NCBI RefSeq assembly: GCF_000317635.1
Contig: NC_019779.1
Coordinates: 1,116,001-1,180,000 of the forward strand
Source: Halothece sp. PCC 7418
GTDB taxonomy: Bacteria > Cyanobacteriota > Cyanobacteriia > Cyanobacteriales > Rubidibacteraceae
DNA length: 64,000 nt
Direction: 5' to 3'
Of this stretch, positions 45,539 to 54,355 are shown in pieces. Each line of letters starts with the position of its first letter. Position 1 is the first letter of the stretch. The translations under genes and the position numbers were made by a program. A model generated the notes under the pieces. That model was not told the origin of the DNA, ran no database searches, and saw nothing but the letters and a program-made list of their open reading frames with translations.

Positions 45539-47713
45539 ATGATACAACTGACTTTAGATCCAGAAACGCAATTAGTGACGGTTGCCGACCCTGACCCTTC
45601 CATTTCTGTCGTGTGGGATCAGGTGATGCAGCAAGCCGTGATGAATACGGGAGTCGGACCGACCGTTGCGTCTCGTGCTTATGGGATGGTGCATACAGCG
45701 ATGTATGATGCTTGGGCAGCGTATGATTCCAGCGCGATCGCGACCCAACTCGAAGATCAACTACAACGTCCAGCAGAAGAAAACACTGAGGCAAACAAAA
45801 CTGAAGCAATGAGTTTTGCTGGCTATCGGGTTTTAAGCGAACTGTTTCCTTCCGAGATTCCTGCTTTTACGGAACAAATGACGGCGTTGGGCTTCGATCC
45901 GAGCAATACCACCACTAATCCCGAAACCCCTGCGGGAATTGGTAATCTTTCGGCGGAGGCTCTCTTAGACTTTCGTGATCAGGATGGGTCGAATCAACTG
46001 GGAAATCATGACCAGGGGACTCTGGGTGTACCTTACTCAGACATTAGTGATTATGAACCAGTTAACAGCCCAGATGTGATGAATCAAATGGATCGTTGGC
46101 TGCCAGAACGAGTTCCCATTGATGCTGAACCGGGAAGTGAAGATCGGATTCAATCATTTTTGACCCCCCATTGGGCAGATGTTGAGCCGTTTGCTCTCAA
46201 TTCAGGCAGTGAATTACGACCAGAACCGCCAGAACCCTTTTTATTAGTGGAAGGAGAGGTCAATGCCCAAGAGGGGACGATTACTTTGGCTGATGGCTCG
46301 ATCGTTGAGATTAGCAAAGATCTGATTGGAACCGTGATTAATCCCGCTTTTATTGAACAAGCAGAAAAGTTGGTAACGGTAAATGCGAATCTCACTGATG
46401 AAGAGAAACTCATTGCTGAGTTTTGGGAAGATGCAGCAGGAACGTCTTTTCCACCAGGGACTTGGATGACGTTTGGTCAATTTGTGTCCGCCCGAGATGA
46501 TAATTCTCTGGATGAAGATGCAAAATTGTTCTTTGCTTTGGGAAATGCCGTATTTGATGCGGGAATTGCCACTTGGGAAGCGAAACGATTTTATGATTAT
46601 GTGCGCCCTGTGCGTGCGATTCGGGAGTTAGGTCGTTTGGGGTTAATTGGTGAGTTTAATGAAGATTTAGGCGGATTCGCCATTGAAGCCTGGCAGCCTG
46701 GTGAAGGGACACAGACAATTTTAGCAACGGATTTCTTAACTTACCAAACCCCCGGTAGCGATCCCTCTCCTCCCTTTGCCGAGTACACTTCGGGACATAG
46801 TGGCTTTAGTGCCTCTGCTGCTACCATCTTAGAAGAGTTTACAGGAAAGGGTGAGTTTGGAGCGTCTGTGACGTTTGAGCCTGGAGACTCTCGTTTTGAA
46901 CCTGGGGTAACCCCGAAAGAGCCAGTGACTCTAGAATGGGAGACGTTTCGGGAGGCTGCGGATGAAGCAGGAGTCTCTCGCATCTATGGTGGGATTCACT
47001 TTGATGATGGGGATCTTAATGGTCGCACTCTCGGAACAGCAGTGGGTGAAGCCGTTTGGGAAGAAACCAATTTCTTGATCGGTGGCGGGTCAAGTTCCAT
47101 TTTTGGTACTTCCGCAGCCGATATGATTGACGTGGCAATGGATTCTGATTTTGATGGTCATCGTGATTTAATTGTGACAGGAGCAGGGAATGACATCATT
47201 AATCTCAGTCAAGCCAGTTTTGGTCAAAATCGAGTTTACGGGAATCGGGGCGATGATTTGCTGATTGCTGGACAACAGGATCAATTCTTTGCTGGGGCGG
47301 GAAACGATACCTTTGAAGGCTCTACCAGTGGTGGCGATAACCAAATTTATGGCGGTGAGGGGAACGATTTATTTTTCAATGGTCAGAATGATCGCCTTTT
47401 TGGCGGGACAGGAGATGACCGTTTCTTCATGACAGAAACCAGTGGAAATAATGTGATTACTGGTGGGTCAGGGTCAGATCTGTTCTCGATTGTCAATGCA
47501 GGTTTTCCCGAAAGCCCGAATGTGATTACTGATTTTACTAGTGGGGTTGATCGCCTTCAGATTGCAGGAATTCCTGATTTAGAGGAGTTGGCTGATTTGA
47601 CTTTGGTTGAGGGCGACTTGGGGACGACGATTAGCATTGACGATCGCGCGATCGCCATTCTACAAAACCTCACCGCAAGCAGTCTCAGCAGTGACGACGT
47701 TTTCTTTGCCTAG
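45539..47713 (+). CDS. Vanadium-dependent haloperoxidase with C-terminal RTX-like repeats
   Basis: Vanadium haloperoxidases use H2O2 to oxidise halides. The 724-residue protein has the vanadate-binding residues in the PAP2-like fold: Lys349 and Arg356 ('AKRFYDYVRPVRAIR'), Ser418-Gly419-His420 ('EYTSGHSGFSASA'), Arg481 and the axial His487 ('SRIYGGIHFDDGD'). Residues about 520-715 are glycine/aspartate-rich nonapeptide-like repeats ('GNRGDDLLIAG', 'AGAGNDTFEGS', 'GGEGNDLFFNG') that bind calcium and mark type I secretion. There is no N-terminal signal peptide, which agrees with C-terminal secretion. The likely role is extracellular peroxide and halide chemistry; halide preference is unknown. 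Confidence 0.9.
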   Translation: MIQLTLDPETQLVTVADPDPSISVVWDQVMQQAVMNTGVGPTVASRAYGMVHTAMYDAWAAYDSSAIATQLEDQLQRPAEENTEANKTEAMSFAGYRVLSELFPSEIPAFTEQMTALGFDPSNTTTNPETPAGIGNLSAEALLDFRDQDGSNQLGNHDQGTLGVPYSDISDYEPVNSPDVMNQMDRWLPERVPIDAEPGSEDRIQSFLTPHWADVEPFALNSGSELRPEPPEPFLLVEGEVNAQEGTITLADGSIVEISKDLIGTVINPAFIEQAEKLVTVNANLTDEEKLIAEFWEDAAGTSFPPGTWMTFGQFVSARDDNSLDEDAKLFFALGNAVFDAGIATWEAKRFYDYVRPVRAIRELGRLGLIGEFNEDLGGFAIEAWQPGEGTQTILATDFLTYQTPGSDPSPPFAEYTSGHSGFSASAATILEEFTGKGEFGASVTFEPGDSRFEPGVTPKEPVTLEWETFREAADEAGVSRIYGGIHFDDGDLNGRTLGTAVGEAVWEETNFLIGGGSSSIFGTSAADMIDVAMDSDFDGHRDLIVTGAGNDIINLSQASFGQNRVYGNRGDDLLIAGQQDQFFAGAGNDTFEGSTSGGDNQIYGGEGNDLFFNGQNDRLFGGTGDDRFFMTETSGNNVITGGSGSDLFSIVNAGFPESPNVITDFTSGVDRLQIAGIPDLEELADLTLVEGDLGTTISIDDRAIAILQNLTASSLSSDDVFFA

Positions 47714-50452: not shown

Positions 50453-51664
50453 TTAATCAATTGAAGAGGGCGACAGTTGTTCCCTTAAACTGGATAAAAG
50501 TTCCTGCATCGACTGGGGATGACCGGGTAGGATTTTAGTTGCAACTTTTTGGAGAAGATGGTGTAGCGTTTCCTGTTGCAGGAGTTGTTGCGGGGACGCG
50601 ATCGCGAGAATGGGTAAATTTTGAATGGTGCTCAGTTGTCGTAAGCCTTCTAGAATCTCGGCATCGACTTCTGTTCCTTCTAAATCTAACAGTAAAATAT
50701 CAGCGCCTTGCTGTTCCACTTGCTGATAAACTTCTCCCCAAGAATGAGCCAGAGAACTGCGATAACCCGCCGTAGATAAATACTGGATAAAGGCATTTAG
50801 CCATTCCGAGGCAATATGATCACAAGCCTGACTGCTCAGTCTTTTGCCATCGACGACCCCCACATAAGGTGCGGTATGTCGAGGAGGGGGATTAATCCCT
50901 GCTGCAAACTGTAACACTGACCACAGGGGATTTTTCGCTTCAGCAGAGTGTAAGGTCAGACAAGGGTAAATGGATAACTTGCCAATTTGATGCCCTAAGC
51001 GAGCCGTTTCCGCATCAAGACAGACAAGGGGTAAGTTAGAGAGGGTTTCTTGTTCGCTGAGTTCTTGCAGAAAATGGCGTGGAATCTGGTCACCAGTGAG
51101 GAGTAAAACATCAGGATGCCAGATCCGTTGCAAGAGTTCGGCTTGTTGGGGATCATCCGCTTCTAAGATGCGATAGTTGACGTTTTTGGCATGGGTTTCG
51201 GGGGGGGTACTTAAAATTTCCGTGACGGGATCGCGCTTCGGAGGAGGAGTCTCCCCAGAATAGTGTAATCGCAAAACGGTTAAGGATTTACGATAGAGAG
51301 AACGAGGGGCTGCACAAACAGAGAGGGCATCTTCTAGGCTGTTGAGTTCAACGGGTAAGGAAAGAAAGGCATCTGCGCCATTATTCATCGCTTCTTGTTT
51401 TTCTCCGCGAGTTCCAGTGACAATAATCGGGAGGTTACAACTGCTGGGATGAGATTTGAGGAGGGTGAGGACATCCCAACCGGAAAGCAGGGGTAAGACT
51501 GGGTTCAGGAGAATGGTACAAGGTTGAAAGGTACGGGCTTTCAGGAGGGCTTCTGTCCCCGATCGCGCGATCGCGACCCGATATCCCAATTGGCGAAGTT
51601 GTTGGGTAATATTGGTTAAATATTGGGCGACTGCTTCCACGACTAACACCAGTTTTCCAGCCAC
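50453..51664 (-). CDS. Multi-receiver regulator lacking phosphorylation residues
   Basis: The product is about 403 residues with no DNA-binding or catalytic output domain: a receiver-like domain (about 5-120), a diverged receiver-like middle (about 150-255) and a third (about 285-400). In the first, the phosphoacceptor Asp is Asn54 ('CTILLNPVLPLLSGWD'), the acidic pair is reduced ('LVLVVEAVAQ') and the conserved Lys is Leu103. The third keeps an Asp ('DILLLDLEG') but not the rest of the pocket. I chose GTG 51664, which overlaps the kinase stop by 22 bases; the longer open frame to 51943 only runs over the kinase gene. It is coupled to that kinase. Confidence 0.8.
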   Translation of the reverse strand: MAGKLVLVVEAVAQYLTNITQQLRQLGYRVAIARSGTEALLKARTFQPCTILLNPVLPLLSGWDVLTLLKSHPSSCNLPIIVTGTRGEKQEAMNNGADAFLSLPVELNSLEDALSVCAAPRSLYRKSLTVLRLHYSGETPPPKRDPVTEILSTPPETHAKNVNYRILEADDPQQAELLQRIWHPDVLLLTGDQIPRHFLQELSEQETLSNLPLVCLDAETARLGHQIGKLSIYPCLTLHSAEAKNPLWSVLQFAAGINPPPRHTAPYVGVVDGKRLSSQACDHIASEWLNAFIQYLSTAGYRSSLAHSWGEVYQQVEQQGADILLLDLEGTEVDAEILEGLRQLSTIQNLPILAIASPQQLLQQETLHHLLQKVATKILPGHPQSMQELLSSLREQLSPSSID

Positions 51665-53232
51665 TTTCTGGGAAGAGGCTTGAGAGTGAAAGGGTTTTGG
51701 GGGGGAGTGGGGGGAAGCAATAAGGTAAACTGCGATCCTTTCCCTTCTTCGGAAATAAAGGAGACATCTCCCCCGTGAGCATGGGCTAAGCGTTGGGTTA
51801 ACACTAATCCTAATCCTGTCCCTGAAAATTGTCGGGTCATGGGGTCTTCTAACTGCTGAAATTTCTGAAAAATCAGATGTTGGGACGATTCGGGAATCCC
51901 AATCCCAGTATCCCAAACTGTAAAGGCGATCCATCCTTCCCATTGACTGACCTCTAAGCCCATTTCCCCTTTTTCGGCGGTAAACTTGCGCCCATTGGAG
52001 AGTAAATGGACTAACATCTGACGTAAGCGCAGTTCATCGGCGATGATAGTTTCTAATCCCTCCTCAATGTGTTGGGTAAATTCGGCGGGGGAGTCGGGGG
52101 TTTGTTGATGGGCTTCTTCATAAGCGCGATCGCAGACTTGTTTGAGATTAACCACTTCGGGATGAATTTGTAACTGTCCTGTTTCTAATCGTGCTAAATC
52201 TAAGAGATCATTCACTAAATTCATCAACTGACGACCACTTTGATGAATTTGATTAACATAGCGCTGTTGTCGCTGATTAAGATCGCCAATACTCTTTTCA
52301 CCCATTAAATTCGACAAGCCGACAATTGCTGTTAAGGGGCTTTTCAGTTCGTGAGTAATGCAGGCTAAAAACTCATCTTTCAGCCGATTTAACTGTACTA
52401 AGTCCGCATTTTTCGCAGCGAGTTCTTTACACAGTTGTCGTTGTTCTGTAATATCAGTGGCGATAACCACCCATAACCCACCCCACTCACTCTCAGGAAG
52501 ATTGAGGGTTAAAAATTGCCAGACTCCTGACGTTTTAGCGGTAGTGGTTTCCTTGGGATGAGCGGATAAGGGAAATAAGGGACAAGGAGAGTGGGTTTCT
52601 CTGACTGTTTGTGGAGTCGCCTCAGGAGATTGAGAAATCACATTACACCATTGTTTTTCCCCTCCAGAGGACTCCCCCGTGACTAAGCAACAATTTTCAG
52701 TGTGAGTGCAAATGTTTTCCCGCCATTGGCTGTTTTGATGGAGCAGTTTTCCCGCTTTAGTTTGTAACATCAAAGGGAGAGGAAGTTTCTCTAAGAAGTT
52801 AATCAGCAATTTTAAATTGGTGGAAGCGGGCTGAGACTCTTCTGTTTTCTCTCGCAACAAAACTTGTAAAATGCTTTCGGTATCTAATTGTCCTCGTAAT
52901 TTTCCTTTGCGATCCACGACGACAATTTTTTCCTGATTGCTGAGCTTTTCCAGATAGGGAAGCAACTGTTGTAAGCTCATTTGCTCGGAAACTGTTGTCA
53001 CAGGAGAGAGTAAGGAAATCACAGAAGAGTCTGCTGCCATTTTATCGTTGATTCCTTGCAAGGCTGTCCCAGCAGAAATAATCCCAAGGGGAAAATCAGC
53101 AGCATTGACCACCACTAAAAAATCACTGTTGTTTGAGCCCAAAGCGGGGAGAATCGTTTCCAGTGTCTTCTCAGACTGACAAGAGGGAACGGACTTGATA
53201 AATTGTTCTAGGGTCGGATCGCAATTAGACAT
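51643..53232 (-). CDS. Sensor histidine kinase with CBS pair and PAS domain
   Basis: The 529-residue soluble kinase has two N-terminal CBS repeats (about 1-130, 'NNSDFLVVVNAADFPLGIIS', 'EKIVVVDRKGKLRGQLDTES'), a PAS-like domain (about 145-265), HisKA with His294 ('FLACITHELKSPLTAIVGLS') and a HATPase domain (about 400-510, 'DTGIGIPESS', 'GTGLGLVLTQRLAHAHGG'). CBS pairs usually sense adenine nucleotides, so an energy-state input is plausible. It is followed by the overlapping multi-receiver gene and is divergent from kaiA across about 300 bases. It is not SasA, which has a KaiB-like N-terminus. Confidence 0.92.
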   Translation of the reverse strand: MSNCDPTLEQFIKSVPSCQSEKTLETILPALGSNNSDFLVVVNAADFPLGIISAGTALQGINDKMAADSSVISLLSPVTTVSEQMSLQQLLPYLEKLSNQEKIVVVDRKGKLRGQLDTESILQVLLREKTEESQPASTNLKLLINFLEKLPLPLMLQTKAGKLLHQNSQWRENICTHTENCCLVTGESSGGEKQWCNVISQSPEATPQTVRETHSPCPLFPLSAHPKETTTAKTSGVWQFLTLNLPESEWGGLWVVIATDITEQRQLCKELAAKNADLVQLNRLKDEFLACITHELKSPLTAIVGLSNLMGEKSIGDLNQRQQRYVNQIHQSGRQLMNLVNDLLDLARLETGQLQIHPEVVNLKQVCDRAYEEAHQQTPDSPAEFTQHIEEGLETIIADELRLRQMLVHLLSNGRKFTAEKGEMGLEVSQWEGWIAFTVWDTGIGIPESSQHLIFQKFQQLEDPMTRQFSGTGLGLVLTQRLAHAHGGDVSFISEEGKGSQFTLLLPPTPPQNPFTLKPLPRKWLENWC

Positions 53233-53527
53233 GGGACACTTCCGAAAATTATCATGCAGTCGGTGAGGGGGAAAACGCTCGCAAATGATTCATTTTGATC
53301 AAACTCCTTGTTGTTGCCGTGAAAATGTTAAATTTTTATAAAGGGTGCTGTTTAAGCTCAAGATGACCCTTTGTTTGGAATGACCATTGGTCACTATCAG
53401 TCAAAGGCTATCTTTCCAGATTTCCTCTAGGGGAAATGAGGCTGAAATAAGTTCCTGCGCCTACTACCCGTTTCGGTCATTGGATGATTCCTCCACTTCT
53501 AGAGTCTCACTAATAATTATTTCAACT

Positions 53528-54355
53528 TTGTCTGCTCAACTATTTATTTGTTTATTCACCATCAGCCCTGATCTCGCCAAATCTGTCAAAGAGATTTTGC
53601 GGGATAAACCTTATCATTTGCGTGTTTTTGACTCATCAGAAGCCGTTATCGGTTATATTCTGGAGCAAACTGAGCAGATCGATTGTTTACTGTTGCATCA
53701 GGGTCAGGGGATAGAAGAAGTGGTCACTTGTTTACGCAATGAAGGTAAACTTTTACCTGCGGTCATTTTAACCACAGAGGCGGACAATCAAGACTTAGTT
53801 TATCACCCTGCCCAAACCTATCTTGCCACGGAAACACTGGCTAAAATTCCGACCGTAATTGAGGGCGCGATCGCGGATTTCCTCCAACTCACTCCCGAAG
53901 CTAAACCGCAATTTGAGATTGAACAGATTAATGAATTTTTAACAATTAAGCAACATCGTTTAACAGAAAAATTACAAGAGCGACTGGGATACAAAGGAGT
54001 GTACTATAAACGAAATCCGCAAGATTTTTTTCGTTACCTCACCTCTGAGGAAAAAAGGAATTTAATCTCAGAATTAACGGAAGAATACCGCCTCATTCTT
54101 TTAGACTATTTTCAGGATGCAACAGAAGTCAATTCCAAAATTGATCAGTTTGTTACCCGTGCGTTTTTTGCTGACCTTTCTGTCTCACAAATCATGGAAA
54201 TTCACATGGATTTAATGGATCAATTTTCTCAACAATTAAAACTAGAAGGTCGCAGTGATGAAATTTTGTTAGATTATCGCCTCACGTTAATTGATATTAT
54301 TGCTCATCTGTGCGAAATGTATCGCCGTTCGATTCCGACAAAAGTTCGGAAATAA
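53528..54355 (+). CDS. kaiA: Circadian clock protein KaiA
   Basis: KaiA stimulates KaiC autophosphorylation. The N-terminal pseudo-receiver (about residues 1-135) and the C-terminal helical KaiC-binding/dimer domain ('RLGYKGVYYKRNPQDFFRYL', 'DLMDQFSQQLKLEGRSDEIL', 'DYRLTLIDIIAHLCEMYRRS') are both present, so it is the full-length type. The start is not secure: the frame is open to a TTG at 53387, but homology of 'SAQLFICLF' to the KaiA N-terminus favours TTG 53528, giving 275 residues. No ATG start is available. kaiB follows after 83 bases, which include a fragment of repeat B. Confidence 0.92.
   Translation: MSAQLFICLFTISPDLAKSVKEILRDKPYHLRVFDSSEAVIGYILEQTEQIDCLLLHQGQGIEEVVTCLRNEGKLLPAVILTTEADNQDLVYHPAQTYLATETLAKIPTVIEGAIADFLQLTPEAKPQFEIEQINEFLTIKQHRLTEKLQERLGYKGVYYKRNPQDFFRYLTSEEKRNLISELTEEYRLILLDYFQDATEVNSKIDQFVTRAFFADLSVSQIMEIHMDLMDQFSQQLKLEGRSDEILLDYRLTLIDIIAHLCEMYRRSIPTKVRK

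Follow-up and report, generated by a model that had tools for sequence, protein, structure and literature searches.

A conserved hybrid sensor kinase with a silenced receiver beside kaiA, interrupted by a single missing base in Halothece sp. PCC 7418

Introduction

Papers on the cyanobacterial clock name CikA, SasA, RpaA and LdpA (PMC12691664, PMC8064755), and for Crocosphaera watsonii a sensor or kinase with the role of CikA is described in a preprint as yet to be identified (PMC12265555). The pseudo-receiver of CikA inhibits autophosphorylation and binds quinones and KaiB, and the pseudo-receivers of both ShkA and CikA inhibit their own kinases, which makes them precedents for gating (PMC12632262). 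The gene considered here encodes a protein of comparable build and lies divergently beside kaiA in a stretch of 64,000 nucleotides (hereafter the window) of Halothece sp. PCC 7418, at positions 1,116,001 to 1,180,000 of NC_019779.1, the genome being a single contig of 4,179,170 bases. The larger finding is that a hybrid kinase whose receiver is silenced has been conserved next to kaiA; in the window genome this one sensor-kinase gene is broken by a single missing base, and an earlier note on the same DNA had misread the broken gene as an operon.

Gene structure and the frameshift

The two parts of the gene and the site of the break are as follows.

51643 to 53232, minus strand: 5' part of the hybrid kinase gene (CBS pair, PAS-like, HisKA and HATPase_c domains), 529 residues, ending on a stop made by the frameshift.
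50453 to 51664, minus strand: remaining 3' portion, coding for three receiver-like domains and read in the -1 frame; GTG 51664 is the start assumed in the earlier note.
51699 to 51705, minus strand: run of seven C (seven G on the plus strand), by DNA alignment one base fewer than in four congeners, the gene-splitting frameshift.

The earlier note had described a kinase gene and a multi-receiver gene, overlapping by 22 bases, made together and divergent from kaiA. Its two reading frames, the 529-residue kinase frame at 51643-53232 and the receiver frame ending at 50453, both on the minus strand, are borne out, as is their orientation; that they are two genes is not. In all four congeners that carry the gene, a single open reading frame (ORF) of 918-953 residues spans kinase and receivers, against an open frame of 548 residues in the window, and alignment with these four of the linker DNA between HATPase and REC1, the first receiver, places the window one base short, within the C7 run. 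With one base fewer in that run, the first part meets a stop by chance, and the receivers are left in the -1 frame. Beyond the genus, kinase and receivers form one ORF in 36 of 37 fetched relatives, the exception being a broken copy in genome G018, and the histidine kinase and REC1 share a single frame at 78 of 80 named loci; at the other two the contig starts inside the gene. Since the gene is one ORF in relatives and the window is a single base short of it, the apparent pair is a single frameshift-broken gene, and a two-gene operon is rejected. The 22-base overlap is a frameshift scar: it is present only if a receiver gene is made to start at GTG 51664, but the receiver frame is open further upstream, as far as 51943.

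Along the window lineage the receiver part accumulated 14 nonsynonymous and 33 synonymous changes, where the sister has 7 and 32, so that decay of the receivers in this lineage is unsupported. As the receiver part is still constrained, the break would be a recent one, a bypassed one or a sequencing error. Another slippage-prone homopolymer, a C8 run (G8 on the plus strand) at 51200-51207, lies within the receiver coding sequence.

Domain architecture

The whole protein is a hybrid kinase in the order CBS pair, PAS-like domain, HisKA, HATPase, pseudo-receiver REC1 and two further receiver-like domains, REC2 and REC3.

52840 to 53214, minus strand: CBS pair (Bateman module), residues 7-131, from Pfam, the predicted model (mostly high predicted local distance difference test score, pLDDT) and Foldseek.
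52447 to 52827, minus strand: PAS-like domain, residues 136-262, with a near-invariant Cys196, from the model fold; Pfam barely sees it.
52177 to 52380, minus strand: HisKA, phospho-acceptor His294 (codon 52351-52353), from Pfam and alignment.
51706 to 52038, minus strand: HATPase_c, N- and G-box residues present, from Pfam and alignment.
51311 to 51652, minus strand: REC1, pseudo-receiver, Asn54 (codon 51503-51505), Leu103 at the Lys site, from Pfam and alignment.
50903 to 51178, minus strand: REC2, degenerate, Thr190 and Leu236, from the model and alignment.
50474 to 50866, minus strand: REC3, degenerate, Asp327 kept, Leu379, from the model; a gap in 17 of 45 aligned rows.

The features expected of a hybrid histidine kinase are present, namely the HisKA histidine, the N and G boxes of HATPase_c and, in relatives, a receiver in the same chain, which in the window is interrupted by one base. 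Judged by identities among relatives, the kinase core is the most conserved part, and its HisKA histidine stands in all 45 rows of the family alignment. The CBS call of the earlier note was right: the Pfam CBS model scores 22.5 bits on the whole ORF and 24.9 bits on its first 281 residues (cut-off 24), matches 42 of 45 members, and corresponds in the predicted structure (mean pLDDT 79.2) to two CBS folds forming one module, as in a Bateman sensor. The top Foldseek matches of the N-terminus are CBS-pair structures, c-di-AMP and AMP binders among them. A PAS-like fold is likewise present in the model, with residues 184-230 at low confidence, and the corresponding Pfam matches are weak (PAS_4 in 4 of 45 members). 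No GAF domain was matched by Pfam in the 45 members at E <= 0.01, which gave CBS and weak PAS matches only, and the N-terminus, being a CBS pair, is not the KaiB-like (thioredoxin-like) domain of SasA. Within the PAS-like region, Cys196 (52645-52647) is Cys in 43 of 45 members, and a further C-x-C motif, absent in the window, occupies columns that are Cys in 27 and 30 of 45; these cysteines are a possible metal or redox site.

On the receiver piece, the Pfam Response_reg model scores 56-57 bits, over two stretches in one scan and one in another, and the predicted structure contains three receiver-like folds (mean pLDDT 83.6) with Foldseek matches to PleD and DivK. REC1 is recognised as a receiver but has Asn in place of the phospho-Asp and Leu in place of the Lys, which makes it a pseudo-receiver. 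The residues reported missing from REC1 in the earlier note were thus correctly read for the phospho-site (Asn54) and the lysine (Leu103), but the acidic pair is partly kept, as Glu10-Ala11. Its description of the other two receivers as degenerate stands for Thr190 (replacing Asp) and Leu236 (replacing Lys) in REC2 and for Leu379 (replacing Lys) in REC3, but not for the acidic residues of REC2 or for Asp327 of REC3, which are retained. Among the members compared, REC2 has Asp in 35 of 46, a mostly retained acidic pair, and Leu in place of Lys in 45 of 46; of the 28 aligned members with a REC3, only 8 have its Asp, which makes this domain unlikely as a general phosphate acceptor.

Conservation of the lost phospho-site

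A class set of 291 genomes was searched with a REC1 profile, up to 14 candidates being scored per genome, and a strict cut-off of E <= 1.2e-30 was applied, the next matches starting at E = 4.1e-26. The kinase occurs in at least 131 of these genomes, from 20 families (hand count); the number is a lower bound, as G012, with a divergent kinase beside kaiA, falls below the cut-off. The named loci, the fetched relatives and the class genomes are overlapping sets.

Among the 131 class orthologs the REC1 phospho-site is Asn in 99, Ser in 29, Asp in 2 and His in 1, and the catalytic Lys is kept in 27, all of them in family f55. A subset of 100, with 23 f55 genomes left out, gives Asn 90, Ser 7, Asp 2 and His 1, with Lys in 4. 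The 45-row alignment, from which G018 (L051) was excluded for its broken kinase, has Asn in 40 rows, Asp in 2, Lys in 1 and gaps in 2 at the phospho-site and the catalytic Lys in none; at the named loci, a set of best matches picked by motifs beside the site, Asn is found in 80 of 80. Elsewhere the domain is strongly conserved: many columns are invariant among 100 members, including the Gly-Trp-Asp that follows the site, Arg31, Lys39 and Arg41, and the turn residues typical of receivers persist, with Pro at D+4 in 99 of 100 and Gly at D+8 in all 100. Because so many columns are invariant, REC1 is under selection, and on the same conserved columns receiver decay is rejected for the family.

The alignments thus support the lost phospho-site as a conserved family trait and not local decay, which favours a binding or gating role; the earlier note had proposed a binding-based signal for a phosphorylation-dead receiver, and the proposal gains from a site that is other than Asp in 129 of 131 orthologs. 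Glu commonly takes the place of Asp in pseudo-receivers, where Asn or Ser is found here, and Pro at D+4 and Gly at D+8, retained here, are much less frequent in them (PMC12632262).

Distribution and position beside kaiA

The neighbouring features are these.

53387 to 54355, plus strand: kaiA, longest ORF; open frames of 276-279 residues in congeners suggest a start near 53520-53530.
53322 to 53344, no strand assigned: 23-bp block between the kinase gene and kaiA, matched once per genome in four kai-bearing congeners.

In the window, kaiB and kaiC lie behind kaiA. The link of the kinase to the clock is positional, and its conservation, which the earlier note asked to have checked, is high: the gene lies within 6 kb of kaiA and always divergent from it in 123 of 131 orthologs, representing 19 of the 20 families, although in one of the 123 (G297) the adjacent kaiA has internal stops. 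A further six orthologs are located away from kaiA, five of them on another contig, and two are in incomplete bins without kaiA; a position far from kai genes in most relatives, named in the earlier note as grounds for giving up its reading, is therefore not what is seen. At the named loci kaiA is on the opposite strand in 76 of 80, and 41 of 45 kinases outside the window genome (33 of 37, plus 8) are divergent beside kaiA or a kaiA remnant.

The class set has kaiA in 259 of 291 genomes, and 129 of these 259, about half, have the kinase; a search with the sensor part found it in 38 of 60 genomes, the window's own included. When 20 kaiA loci were fetched as kinase-less, 8 proved to have the kinase and 1 a receiver remnant (G004), with none in the stretch examined at the other 11, of which one lies on a contig that begins 545 bases before kaiA. 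In family f33, KaiA frames run to about 190-205 residues (one, interrupted by stops, to 111) and cover the C-terminal model only in part, yet all 16 f33 genomes counted with kaiA have the kinase.

Searched for with up to two mismatches allowed, the 23-bp block occurs once per genome, with at most one mismatch, in four congeners with kaiABC, and was found in neither G002 nor G004, the two congeners whose kai genes are decayed or cut, G002 keeping the kinase. Its absence from G002, where the kinase stays and the clock is lost, suggests that the block more likely serves kaiA than the kinase, and its reading as a bidirectional promoter element common to both genes is not upheld. With repeats spaced by about 10 bp, the block may be a site of the OmpR family. 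A search for the block core over 203 intergenic regions (some genomes counted twice) gave a weak shift relative to shuffles, and a promoter and terminator scan gave no more matches than in shuffles. A conserved element resembling TTCCTCAAGGTTCTA lies between the kinase and kaiA in about 60 of the 203 rows (again with some genomes twice) and is enriched relative to shuffles; it probably belongs to the heterocystous group.

Proposed mechanism

The best model, held to be fairly probable, is that of a single hybrid sensor kinase, its frame broken in the window, which is gated by the pseudo-receiver REC1 and has another protein as its phosphate acceptor. Its support comes from an intact kinase core, the CBS pair, a REC1 without Asp, one continuous chain in relatives and adjacency to kaiA. 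The CBS pair, with a ligand of the adenine-nucleotide or cyclic-di-AMP type, and the PAS domain would set the state of the kinase; REC1 would take no phosphate and would instead gate the kinase by docking either on its core or on a partner protein, as in ShkA and CikA; and phosphate would pass in trans to a separate response regulator or, less likely, to REC2. Given its divergent position beside kaiA in 19 of 20 families, the gene probably shares its regulation with the clock operon or signals the state of the cell to the clock. Retention of the kinase where the Kai system is lost suggests that it keeps a function there.

Several observations weigh against this model. Asp stands at the REC1 site in 2 of 131 class orthologs and 2 of 45 aligned rows, as well as in the broken copy of G018 (L051) that was left out of the alignment. 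Both class orthologs with Asp (G061 and G085) belong to the six that lie away from kaiA; however, the kaiA-adjacent relatives G049 and G016 also have Asp at the site, like the G018 copy. In family f55 (L265-L268, L299-L321), the site is Ser in 25 and Asn in 2, with Lys in all 27; the active-site change thus differs between families, and receiver 1 of f55 may work differently from that of the others. Three kaiA-side kinases among the 45 rows (L057, L081, L085) are divergent members with little or no REC1, and in the window lineage REC1 taken alone has evolved slightly faster than in the sister (nonsynonymous to synonymous 7:13 against 1:8). Phosphotransfer to REC2 may still occur in spite of its missing Lys, REC2 keeping Asp in 35 of 46 members and mostly the acidic pair. 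Finally, comparison of one KaiA sequence with the REC1 profile gave an hhalign probability of 1.8% for kinship with the KaiA pseudo-receiver, which leaves REC1 unsupported as an offshoot of that domain.

Alternative explanations

The alternative that survives best, a distinct though tentative possibility, is a sensor kinase outside the clock whose place beside kaiA persists through shared promoter control or conserved local gene order. Two genomes without intact kaiC retain it: G002 and G010 have an intact kinase beside decayed kai remnants (L035 5035-5909; L046 1441-3368) and no kaiC match at E <= 1e-60, and the changes in the G002 kinase (49 nonsynonymous, 111 synonymous) are in a ratio like that of congeners with a clock (62:99 and 47:92). 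The kinase is thus not strictly clock-dependent. Local gene order is in any case conserved in the named set, which is mostly of heterocystous cyanobacteria; the most frequent downstream neighbour, taken as a control, is kept at 44 of 65 named loci. Adjacency to kaiA is nonetheless tighter (76 of 80 against 44 of 65) and spans 19 families, and the window's outer neighbours ftsY, nusB and ppk appear at none of the 80 named loci within up to 7 kb on each side.

Also tentative, and hardly less likely, is a kinase dedicated to the clock, which would act on KaiA, KaiB, KaiC or RpaA at the input or output side in the manner of CikA. The divergent position beside kaiA, seen in 123 of 131 orthologs, speaks for it, as do two genomes, each 99% complete, in which none of kaiA, kaiC and the kinase was found (G009 and G008), G040, a congener of G009, having both kaiA and the kinase. 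Against it stand G002 and G010, with the change ratio of the former, and G006, which keeps kaiC with a damaged kaiA and in which the kinase was not found; moreover, many clocks run without the kinase, since 259 of 291 genomes have kaiA and 131 the kinase, and the 23-bp block, not found in G002, may belong to kaiA and not to the kinase. On this evidence the kinase is unlikely to be obligatory for the clock, whereas an accessory role is possible. In G004 (L087 8994-10005; genome 85% complete, kaiB and kaiC present), remnants of a receiver and of kaiA lie within a few hundred bases of each other and look as if one deletion had removed the kinase core and the N-terminus of KaiA.

It is improbable that the two frames are separate, translationally coupled proteins in Halothece, kinase and receivers having come apart in evolution, with the receivers now acting in trans. 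A GTG at 51664 in the receiver frame does give a 22-base overlap without an internal stop, and purifying selection acts on the receivers along the window lineage (14 nonsynonymous and 33 synonymous changes). All four gene-bearing congeners have one ORF, however, the change is of a single base in a homopolymer, and by eye no ribosome-binding site is evident before GTG 51664. Nor do other genomes offer a recurrent split. Among 100 REC1 ORFs of the class orthologs, eight lack the H-box pattern and so seemed to have REC1 apart from HisKA. In one of these (G316) the contig ends within the gene, and two (G311 and G186) are single ORFs of 801 and 871 residues that include a kinase match, the H-box pattern having overlooked both. 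The remaining five (G066, G285, G292, G318 and G289) are interrupted at scattered positions, four of which fall within conserved domains; draft errors or decay would be expected to give such a pattern.

Very improbable, and kept only as a minor rival, is that ribosomes or the polymerase slip at the C7 run and make both a short kinase and a full hybrid, whose ratio would set free against gated kinase. A P-site CCC codon could re-pair after a -1 step so that the next codons read the receiver frame, and the break of G289 likewise lies near a C7 run of this linker. Yet a C run of seven or more occurs there in just 12 of 180 intact rows (some genomes twice) and no stimulatory fold stands out (z -0.65), so that a programmed frameshift finds neither a conserved slippery run nor a special fold.

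Significance

The preferred reading of a gated hybrid kinase with its acceptor in trans can be extended to an overlooked, widespread clock-side kinase that senses adenylate or cyclic-di-AMP status and relays it to Kai or RpaA through a binding-type pseudo-receiver, an extension that is rather unlikely. If true, the kinase would be an addition to CikA, or its substitute in clocks without an identified CikA-type sensor. A kinase that abuts kaiA (123 of 131) and has a silenced receiver (129 of 131) is a concrete candidate for an extra sensory branch. The family also lends itself to studying how pseudo-receivers work, with Asn, or Ser in one family, on an otherwise kept scaffold, and the kinase-keeping genomes without intact kaiC separate needing the clock from sitting by it. 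For the Halothece genome there is a caution, in that an apparent operon is a one-base break.

A search of the open-access literature, with subscription journals outside its range, found no study of this gene. The Anabaena ortholog is presumably all2883, because kaiA in that genome is alr2884. That kaiA number is given in PMC8064755, and all2883 itself appears as a table entry in a study predicting CRP sites (PMC2633013). The available parts of the circadian transcriptome paper on Halothece PCC 7418 count two-component genes and leave the locus unmentioned (PMC9374696), and a diel study of Nostoc punctiforme looks for CikA-like kinases with GAF domains (PMC12691664).

Elsewhere in the window, at 45539-47713, a 724-residue ORF gives the impression, from its sequence, of a vanadium-type haloperoxidase or PAP2 protein with terminal repeats.

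Comparison with known systems

One of the nearest likenesses is to CikA, also cyanobacterial and itself tied to the clock, with which the protein shares a histidine kinase core followed by a receiver-like domain without the phospho-Asp. The differences from CikA, here known by description, lie in the sensor (a CBS pair and PAS-like domain in place of GAF), in the presence of up to three receiver-like domains, in the receiver turn residues retained by REC1, and in a gene that abuts kaiA. ShkA of Caulobacter is likewise a hybrid kinase, with an inhibitory pseudo-receiver that binds the core and a further receiver (PMC12632262); its true receiver is phosphorylated, whereas REC2 here is without Lys, and homology is claimed for the domain families alone. 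HrmK (NF038297) is the best NCBIfam match of the kinase piece, at 234.6 bits over residues 260-512, with 44.0 bits for the receiver piece, values far under the family cut-off of 725 bits, though the window's two pieces were scanned apart; the sensor part is unmatched.

PleD, with two receivers and a GGDEF domain, gives the best PDB fold and sequence matches of the receiver part, but there is no GGDEF output here and the receiver-like domains are joined to a kinase. SasA differs in its N-terminal KaiB-like domain, where this protein has the CBS pair. The N-terminal pseudo-receiver of KaiA is a receiver-like domain encoded next door, but without detectable kinship to REC1 (hhalign 1.8%).

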